Part shown: positions 19,052-20,768 of the stretch, in pieces
Layout of the letters: each line of letters opens with the position of its first letter
Position numbering within the stretch: position 1 is the first letter of the stretch
DNA from: a virus
Length of the DNA stretch: 25,574 nucleotides
Virus record (IMG/VR): IMGVR_UViG_3300020394_000307
Location: 1-25,574 of that record
Direction: 5' to 3' (one strand)
Translations under genes and position numbers: made by a program
The notes under the pieces: generated by a model
Told to the model about the DNA's origin: nothing
The model's database searches: none
What the model saw: only the letters and a program-made list of their open reading frames with translations

Positions 19052-19285
19052 ATGCAACCTGGAACACAAGTAAAGCTCAAGGGTAAGAGCAAACACGGTA
19101 AGAACCGTATTCAGCAGTTCGGCGAGGACTTCTGGGTATCAGAGGTTCGCGACCGTCTTCAAACGACCACGCATAAGAACTTGCCTGGTCCCTTCTTAAT
19201 GGTCTTCAGCGAGACTGGAGATAACCGATGGGTCGCTCTTAACAATGATCCCGACTTCGAGGTGCAACAACTTTTAACCGAATAG
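19052..19285 (+). CDS. small conserved phage protein, 77 residues
   Basis: The protein begins MQPGTQVKLKGKSKHGKNRIQ and continues QFGEDFWVSEV. The VKLKGKSxHGKNRIxxxGxxWxV pattern is familiar from small T4-like cyanophage proteins. The basic, strand-like N-terminus suggests an SH3-like barrel or nucleic-acid-binding protein. No function is known. GAGGCA lies 7 to 9 bases upstream. Its last stop-codon base is the first base of the tRNA. Confidence 0.75.
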   Translation: MQPGTQVKLKGKSKHGKNRIQQFGEDFWVSEVRDRLQTTTHKNLPGPFLMVFSETGDNRWVALNNDPDFEVQQLLTE

Positions 19286-19360
19286 CCGTCGTAGCTCAGT
19301 TGGTAGAGCAGGGGTTTTGTAAACCTCAGGTCCGCGGTTCGAGTCCGTGCGACGGCACCA
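19285..19360 (+). tRNA. tRNA-Thr (anticodon UGU), CCA encoded
   Basis: Complete cloverleaf: acceptor GCCGTCG pairs with CGACGGC, D arm GCTC...GAGC, anticodon stem GGGGT/ACCTC around loop TTTGTAA (anticodon TGT, reads ACA), T arm CGCGG-TTCGAGT-CCGTG, then A-CCA in the DNA. It begins at the last base of the preceding gene's TAG. Typical of phages that supplement codons rarer in a host. Confidence 0.95.
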
Positions 19361-19367
19361 TTTATAT

Positions 19368-20294
19368 ATGACAAGCATTAACGTATACGGAAAGACAGGG
19401 GAGGTCGAGAACACCATCACTATCGATGATGAACTCGAATATGTCGACGGCCGGGTCTCAAAAGGTAACAAGTGTTACTATAAGGGAACCGGCCTTCCGT
19501 ATGATGGCCACTATATTCTCGAGGAACCATCCTACGAATACAATAAACTCGGCGAGCCAGATATATTCTATCTGGGTTATCACGTCAAGAGAAAGGTATG
19601 GGATGGTAAGTACGGTATCTTCAAGGAACCGTATCAGCCGTTCTTTCTCGATCACATTGGATCGTGCGCAGGTAAGGAAGGTACCGTTGTCCTGAACTCA
19701 ATGCGCTTTGAAAAAACTTCCATCGAGATATATGACTGCATTGAGATCGATAAAGATGACGAGCAGTATTACTATGAGGTCGACTATAAATGCAAACGTC
19801 GTACCTACATGGAGGGTGGTAGTCCAGAAGATCTGATGGATCTTATTTTGTATATGCTTGAGAGTCACTGGAACTTTCTGTGGGACAAGGGAGCAATCAA
19901 CGATGTCAGTTACAACGGTCTTGTGACCGATCCTGCAGATCTTTTCTATTCGGAAGAGCCAAAACATAAGCTAGGTACGGTGTATGCCGTTCTATATAGT
20001 CTTGCAGAAAAGAGCCACTCAAAGTTCAAAGAGTTTATAGATCACATCGGACTGCACCATCACGACAATACATGGTTCGTCATGAATGCTCTATGGATGA
20101 TTAAGGACTATGTCGATATCAACTCTATGCTTTTAAGTAAAGCTTTACATAAAGATAACTACATACATATTGTAAAGAACTATCTGTTGACTGGAAAGAA
20201 CTGTGCTTATTGTGCATGTGATGCTTTCATCGATCAGGGTGACAAAGTAATGCAACAATATTTAGAAAAGTTTGGAAAACTTGTTGACTCTTAA
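19368..20294 (+). CDS. hypothetical protein, 308 residues
   Basis: Unrecognised protein starting at the ATG 7 bases after the tRNA; an earlier in-frame ATG lies inside the tRNA and is rejected. The N-terminal half is strand-rich (MTSINVYGKTGEVENTITI). From about residue 150 it is helical and aromatic (PEDLMDLILYMLESHWNFLW). The C-terminus may hold HEAT-like helical pairs (IVKNYLLTGKNCAYCACDAFI) with a Cys-x-x-Cys-x-Cys group whose purpose is unknown. There is no Shine-Dalgarno, so expression may come from processed readthrough RNA after tRNA cleavage. No frameshift is evident and codon use looks like its neighbours. Confidence 0.75.
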   Translation: MTSINVYGKTGEVENTITIDDELEYVDGRVSKGNKCYYKGTGLPYDGHYILEEPSYEYNKLGEPDIFYLGYHVKRKVWDGKYGIFKEPYQPFFLDHIGSCAGKEGTVVLNSMRFEKTSIEIYDCIEIDKDDEQYYYEVDYKCKRRTYMEGGSPEDLMDLILYMLESHWNFLWDKGAINDVSYNGLVTDPADLFYSEEPKHKLGTVYAVLYSLAEKSHSKFKEFIDHIGLHHHDNTWFVMNALWMIKDYVDINSMLLSKALHKDNYIHIVKNYLLTGKNCAYCACDAFIDQGDKVMQQYLEKFGKLVDS

Positions 20295-20312
20295 GCAACT
20301 GTTTGTTAGAAT
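20284..20312 (+). promoter_or_regulatory. promoter of the structured RNA
   Basis: TTGACT (20284-20289), 17-base spacer, TAGAAT (20307-20312), overlapping the end of the preceding gene. Predicted start is about 20319, just two bases before the first hairpin. Confidence 0.6.
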
Positions 20313-20318
20313 ACTAAC

Positions 20319-20407
20319 ATGATCGGGGATTACTCGATCTGTATACCGAGACGAAGTAAGGGGTGGTATCTCGGACCACACAAAGGAAAGCTCCTTACTT
20401 CATTTTT
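20319..20407 (+). ncRNA. structured leader or small RNA, about 88 bases, with terminator
   Basis: Three stems. Hairpin 1 is GATCGGG (20321-20327) with CTCGATC (20333-20339), at the very 5' end. Hairpin 2 is GAAGTAAGG (20353-20361) with CCTTACTTC (20393-20401) followed by ATTTTT, a rho-independent terminator pattern. Inside its loop is a third hairpin, GTGGT (20363-20367)/ACCAC (20375-20379). The seven-base loop of that hairpin holds TCTCGG, complementary to CCGAGA at 20346-20351, so a pseudoknot is possible. It ends about 24 bases before the HTH gene. It may be a free sRNA or an attenuated leader of that gene. Confidence 0.55.
20353..20406 (+). terminator. rho-independent terminator of the structured RNA
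   Basis: Nine-base-pair stem GAAGTAAGG/CCTTACTTC followed by ATTTTTG. The loop is long (31 bases) and itself folded, which is unusual for a simple terminator. Confidence 0.5.
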
Positions 20408-20430
20408 GTAACCACAAGGAGACATCGAGT

Positions 20431-20688
20431 ATGTCGAAATCTAGTCGCGTTCTTGACGCACTTATGAATGGAGAACAGCTTACGGTTAAGCAGATCCGTT
20501 CACGTTTTGGAGTTGCCAATCCTACGGCTTTGGTCGACTCACTTCGCAAGTCGGGCGGCTTTGCGATCTACAGCAATGCTCGTACCAACAGCAAAGGTGA
20601 AACCCGTAACTTCTATCGTATGGGTACGCCTTCGAAGGCCGTCATTGCAGCCGGGTACCGCGCTTTGGGTACACGCGTAGCGGCCTAA
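20431..20688 (+). CDS. small winged-helix/HTH DNA-binding protein
   Basis: An 85-residue protein with a helix-turn-helix at about residues 17-42 (LTVKQIRSRFGVANPTALVDSLR), then a beta wing (FAIYSN...NFYRMG) and a helical, basic end (PSKAVIAAGYRALGTRVAA). Similar small HTH proteins occur in T4-like cyanophages. It probably regulates transcription, but its target is unknown. AAGGAG lies 10 bases before the ATG. The preceding structured RNA with a terminator-like end may control it by attenuation. Its GC content is a little higher than that of its neighbours. Confidence 0.8.
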   Translation: MSKSSRVLDALMNGEQLTVKQIRSRFGVANPTALVDSLRKSGGFAIYSNARTNSKGETRNFYRMGTPSKAVIAAGYRALGTRVAA

Positions 20689-20694
20689 TCAAAT

Positions 20695-20768
20695 TAGGGG
20701 ACGGGAAACATCATTCTCCTTATCATCAACTTTTTCCCGTCCCCTATTGATTATTCTAGGAGAATGAT
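20695..20768 (+). promoter_or_regulatory. interleaved inverted repeats (potential pseudoknot or switch)
   Basis: Stem A: TAGGGGACGGGAAA (20695-20708) pairs perfectly over 14 bases with TTTCCCGTCCCCTA (20733-20746). Stem B: ATCATTCTCCT (20710-20720), inside the loop of A, pairs perfectly over 11 bases with AGGAGAATGAT (20758-20768) downstream. The two can form an H-type pseudoknot or compete. It is not followed by a proper U-run. It fills the gap between the HTH gene and the hsp20 promoter. Confidence 0.6.

Follow-up and report, generated by a model that had tools for sequence, protein, structure and literature searches.

The 89-nt stretch at positions 20319 to 20407 is best read, with a probability of roughly 0.55, as a structured leader of the mRNA of a small helix-turn-helix (HTH) gene and not primarily as an independent RNA gene; it combines a hairpin at the 5′ end with a terminator-like, possibly attenuating module. 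The window, by which we mean the whole stretch of DNA analyzed (25,574 nt), is a 25.6-kb virus record whose replication genes, named by reading their translations, are T4-like and include a helicase-type protein, a recombination pair, a clamp, a clamp loader, and a DNA polymerase. The leader stretch is flanked by a 315-aa frame, which ends at 20294, and by an 85-aa winged-HTH-like gene, which starts at 20431; Hsp20 is encoded downstream of the HTH gene. The features of the locus are as follows.

19285 to 19357: tRNA gene in the window.
20284 to 20312, + strand: sigma70-type promoter, TTGACT-17-TAGAAT with TG before the −10, from the sequence and from comparison with the related locus L003.
20319 to 20407, + strand: predicted leader RNA, spanning the inferred start through the U-tract, based on its fold and on 89/89 identity in L003.
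20321 to 20339, + strand: predicted 5′-end hairpin, the element seen family-wide, with its arms at 20321-20327 and 20333-20339, from folding and the leaders of the family.
20340 to 20401, + strand: putative insert of about 62 nt specific to this lineage and lacking in L004 and L005, two loci of close relatives.
20346 to 20351, + strand: S1 5′ strand CCGAGA, a potential partner of 20369-20374, marginal against shuffles.
20369 to 20374, + strand: S1 3′ strand TCTCGG, from its complementarity to 20346-20351.
20353 to 20363, + strand: S2 5′ arm GAAGTAAGGGG of the terminator-like stem, from folding.
20391 to 20401, + strand: S2 3′ arm CTCCTTACTTC of the terminator-like stem, from folding.
20403 to 20407, + strand: T-tract right behind the S2 stem, from the sequence, with a borderline terminator score.
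20416 to 20421, + strand: ribosome-binding site AAGGAG, read from the sequence.
20431 to 20688, + strand: 85-aa winged-HTH-like gene of phrog_4973 (function unknown), matching Pfam HTH_39 only below the cut-off.

The initial annotation had proposed a structured RNA with its own promoter ahead of the HTH gene, and this is supported by strong conservation and by 5′-end hairpins found behind the promoter of the same gene across its family. The promoter is present as claimed, including the extended TG, and its hexamers are kept or better in L003 (TTGACA, TAGAAT), with only 12/17 spacer positions identical; taken as a class, promoter-like sites are no more frequent in this region than chance predicts (13 found versus 9.3 ± 2.9 in shuffles). 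Judging by the promoter position, transcription would start near 20319. The hairpin said to open the RNA is predicted there, beginning 9 nt past the −10 or at about nucleotide 3 of the inferred transcript, so that on this start a stem-loop lies within a few nucleotides of the 5′ end, as in 5′-hairpin leaders. The predicted fold of the 89 nt has an energy of −28.9 kcal/mol (z −3.16), and 2 of 200 shuffles were equally good. The described 3′ stem and T-run were also recovered, as 11 bp between 20353-20363 and 20391-20401 followed by ATTTTTG.

We agree with the annotation that no protein gene explains the stretch. A 30-codon ATG frame runs from 20319 to a TAA at 20409-20411, and reading it as a gene was rejected, as it would be leaderless and without a ribosome-binding site, and its continuation is lost in L004 and L005. 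Sequestration of the HTH start codon by the first hairpin (20331-20338 pairing with 20424-20431) was likewise discarded, since the pairing is broken in L003, L004, and L005. Positions 20260 to 20440 had no Rfam match up to E 10 among 4227 families, including all ribozyme and riboswitch models.

Exact-word scans of viral_contigs recovered the module only in L001/L082, a single contig with 99.86% identity to the window, and in L003, the only independent homologue, which is 85.6% identical over 4.87 kb. The leader RNA is unchanged in L003 at every position, and the longest identical run between the two sequences (20315-20412, 98 nt) matches it; the second-longest (19265-19360) contains the tRNA gene. 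Only 18 of 4785 89-nt windows are fully identical, and the HTH gene is identical at 245 of 258 positions. Because the neighborhood is itself conserved, the identity with L003 partly reflects it and is strong, yet not conclusive, evidence. L004 and L005 keep the promoter, the hairpin, and TTTTGTAAC and lack the 62 nt at about 20340-20401, which may have been gained in the window lineage or lost in L004 and L005. Two IMG/VR matches to part of the module (L086, L087) were set aside as apparent protein-coding sequence missing the rest of it, a single actinobacterial match from a scan of genome_contigs was read as chance, and searches of phage records with the leader DNA returned nothing useful.

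Relatives of the HTH gene were collected as 160 loci from two protein-guided scans, which partly overlap (L016 and L154 are the same contig, as are L012 and L155). The leader set comprised the loci of both scans plus three isolates, taking for each the best promoter scoring at least 9/12 within 170 nt and counting hairpins of −3 kcal/mol or better that start 3-11 nt past the −10. Excluding loci short of upstream sequence, 33 in which no promoter reached 9/12, and near-identical leaders left 68; controls were other promoter-plus-ORF leaders, from the loci of both scans only. A start hairpin was found in 45 of the 68 distinct HTH leaders versus 39/134 control leaders (Fisher p 9e-7), and a separate stem-based protocol gave 17/29 versus 18/166 (p 6e-8), p values that are optimistic because the leaders are kin by descent and not fully independent. 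At −5 kcal/mol the counts were 33/68 and 26/134, and among promoters of at least 10/12 the hairpin was present in 35/50 HTH leaders versus 8/62 controls; 23 of the 68 distinct leaders had no qualifying hairpin.

The arms of the family hairpins contain 24 G-U and 223 Watson-Crick pairs, with arm sequences wholly different between relatives, and neither the hairpin sequence nor the loop is conserved even among HTH proteins about 80% identical. An MAFFT alignment of 16 leaders is not structure-aware and was left out of these pair counts. A promoter followed by a 5′ hairpin is likewise seen in the leaders of Stenotrophomonas phage DLP6, where the hairpin sequence is different, and of Methylophilales phage Melnitz, for which a riboswitch and promoters are described (PMC9004378). 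In Pelagibacter phage HTVC008M, the HTH-family gene lies directly behind another gene. No account of this HTH gene's leader was found in the literature searched. One HTH relative is preceded by an unrelated, apparently pseudoknotted leader (L020:2895-2985, CCTGC/GCAGG across CACG/CGTG, by eye), which has no convincing Rfam match.

Some relatives carry a hammerhead motif in the leader, namely L006-L016 and L062, or 12 of the 80 loci of the first protein-guided scan; this count leaves out L040 and L089, flagged as hammerhead-like by a regular expression. The Rfam matches all fall below the gathering scores, with Hammerhead_1 in L013 (E 6.7e-5), HH9 in L062 (E 1e-6), and weaker hammerhead matches in L006, L014, and L016. 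The predicted cleavage product opens with a predicted hairpin at nucleotide 1-2 in 7/7 hammerhead leaders examined, and the stem I 3′ strand can also pair downstream in 7/7 examined, with modest individual shuffle p values of 0.03-0.12. The exact hammerhead word was found in 30 viral stretches, and in 21 of them an HTH relative lies downstream. Hammerheads in phage and prophage genomes, including phage hammerheads near early genes with suggested roles in the processing of phage messages and the HHphage of HF1/HF2, 13 nt ahead of an early gene, are described in PMC3088659. Hammerhead motifs lie in the corresponding leader position in L006-L016 and L062, whereas the window leader has no Rfam match and lacks the hammerhead core (CUGANGA ... 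GAAA, three stems).

Inside the module, an inner hairpin loop had been proposed to pair with CCGAGA upstream. The complementarity between 20346-20351 and 20369-20374 is real but only marginal against shuffles: when loop and linker were shuffled, an equally good duplex arose in 2.1% of trials on the upstream side and 7.4% on either side (p 0.02-0.07). The S1/S2 region is carried by only two independent sequences, the window and L003, both identical there. On geometric grounds, the loop pairing would not easily coexist with the full 11-bp stem plus a small GTGGT/ACCAC helix, suggesting that S1 and S2 may alternate as competing structures; in prefix folding, S1 is in the best predicted structure for RNA ends at 20376-20395 and S2 from 20400 on.

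The terminator assigned to the 3′ end stands as far as the stem and the A+TTTTT are concerned, but its score is borderline. The classical terminator score is +5.7 or −20.1, according to which position is chosen as the end of the S2 stem, and a simple terminator scan with a loop limit of 8 did not list this stem. The suggestion of an attenuator for the HTH gene fares similarly, being favored by the strong stem, the U-tract, and the earlier competing hairpin but weakened by the borderline score and by U-tracts being ordinary here. Among the family hairpins, only 8/45 have a terminator score above zero. A family-wide terminator first looked convincing (4.2 T in the next 8 nt versus 2.7 expected from the leader itself) and was dropped because control hairpins are nearly as T-rich (4.2 versus 3.7 of 8, p 0.36). 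Attenuation is thus plausible as a local effect of the 62-nt module rather than a demonstrated property of the family.

In the leader reading that we favor, the first ~21 nt of the transcript would form a hairpin right at the 5′ terminus of the HTH message, and evolution would keep this hairpin for the HTH gene while its sequence changes. By analogy with known 5′-hairpin mRNAs, the hairpin probably protects the HTH message, most likely by shielding it from 5′-end-dependent decay. Hairpins of the ompA type at the 5′ terminus stabilize bacterial mRNA, and like the window leader they place a stem-loop of non-conserved sequence at the extreme 5′ end of the mRNA; here, unlike there, stabilization is only predicted, the hairpin is seen across a phage gene family, and some relatives' hairpins are predicted to be made by a ribozyme. 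The 62-nt module, a conserved, lineage-specific addition, most likely represents an attenuator-like stem together with a hairpin that competes with it. Behind the 5′ hairpin it would contribute the 11-bp stem abutting the U-tract and the earlier-forming S1, and its likeliest added effect would be partial premature termination, releasing an RNA of ~89 nt while a fraction of transcripts reads on into the HTH gene. Attenuators built on intrinsic terminators share this layout of a competing early hairpin and then a stem and U-tract before the gene; the window leader differs in having no identified ligand, leader peptide, or regulator and a borderline terminator.

We considered whether the stretch could instead encode an abundant free phage RNA of ~89 nt that acts in trans, with expression of the HTH gene secondary. 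It is a compact unit with its own promoter, conserved over its full length including the loops, and its 3′ end is a stem plus U-tract; yet its only occurrences, in the window, L001, and L003, are directly ahead of the HTH gene, neither of two pattern scans of viral_contigs turned up a further copy, the family leaders keep the hairpin and not an RNA of such size, and the terminator is borderline, so a small RNA is possible but rather unlikely. We give somewhat less credence still to the idea that the module is an undescribed functional RNA, such as a self-cleaving ribozyme or a pseudoknot switch sensing a ligand or protein, placed in the slot that hammerheads and another hammerhead-linked RNA occupy in relatives, with the leader as a hotspot for swapping. 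If so, unrelated RNA devices swapped into the HTH leader would shape the 5′ end and the output of the same message. Theta ribozymes adjoin phage tRNAs (PMC10879173). Taking the HDV-like or theta layout as a nested double pseudoknot with a P3 hairpin before the P1 3′ strand, we read no such arrangement in the sequence, which leaves no room for P3 between 20363 and 20369 and has no Rfam match.

Control by a bound protein, either the HTH protein or another phage protein recognizing the module, would have a parallel in T4 but appears improbable. The gene 32 leader pseudoknot and the gene 43 leader hairpin of T4 are each bound by their own product (PMC3014915), and the window is T4-like in the gene content read from its translations. 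The gene 32 leader resembles ours in belonging to a T4-like phage and in being structured well upstream of the start codon, but the gene is different, an A+U-rich operator of the gp32 type is not seen here, and our pseudoknot is only marginal; moreover, the family hairpin differs from a shared protein site in conserving neither sequence nor loop, and the module itself is lineage-specific. A palindromic DNA operator at +1, bound by the HTH protein and making the RNA hairpin incidental, would match the classical autoregulation layout, in which the start site of an HTH gene holds a dyad. Close HTH relatives, however, vary freely in half-site sequence and in the lengths of arms and loops, and the differing arms together with their G-U pairs favor an RNA structure, making an operator very unlikely. 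That an ordinary promoter, an AT-rich leader, and an incidental stem mimic a designed unit would agree with the marginal pseudoknot, the borderline terminator, and the lack of enrichment of promoter-like sites, but the z of the fold, the longest identical run of the locus, and the gene-specific hairpin of the HTH family make chance highly improbable.

Should the leader reading hold, a single small regulator gene of phages maintains a structured start of its mRNA through either promoter placement or ribozyme cleavage, and two unrelated routes to such a start suggest that the mature 5′ end is itself under selection. Whether phage hammerheads act in shaping mRNA ends could then be put to a direct test in phages available in culture, such as Melnitz and DLP6.

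In phage tRNA arrays and some HTH leaders, we also observed a hammerhead followed by a conserved RNA of 114-176 nt, possibly a new RNA class, with the core GACCUURUGGUGUA ... AUCCGAUAG ... GUGUAGGCRUCCAAAGAUAAACCA. It was located at the following positions.

L174:5152-5282, L190:7494-7652, and L192:4190-4324: hammerhead-linked RNA.
L178:5531-5644, L186:9677-9791, and L083 (the same contig as L013):7990-8165: hammerhead-linked RNA.

The core pattern matches 18 viral stretches, and across nine sequences 12 of 24 predicted pairs show two-sided changes, such as UGUGGU/ACCACA to UAUGGU/ACCAUA in L174 and L192. Rfam gave nothing beyond the hammerhead in the four loci scanned. Kinship between the window module and the element in L013-L015 was rejected, no common sequence core being visible by eye.

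Two observations concern the region that follows the HTH gene. The ROSE_3 thermosensor is matched there, weakly and below threshold, at L006:3337-3396 and L172:572-635, the position of hsp20 in the window. In the window itself, 20695-20768 contains a stem (20695-20708/20733-20746) in which L004 and L005 show a compensatory replacement of A-T by G-C. The loop of this stem, ATCATTCTCCT, is complementary over its full length to AGGAGAATGAT, which occupies 20758-20768 immediately ahead of the presumed hsp20 promoter, and L003-L005 preserve both 11-mers without change.
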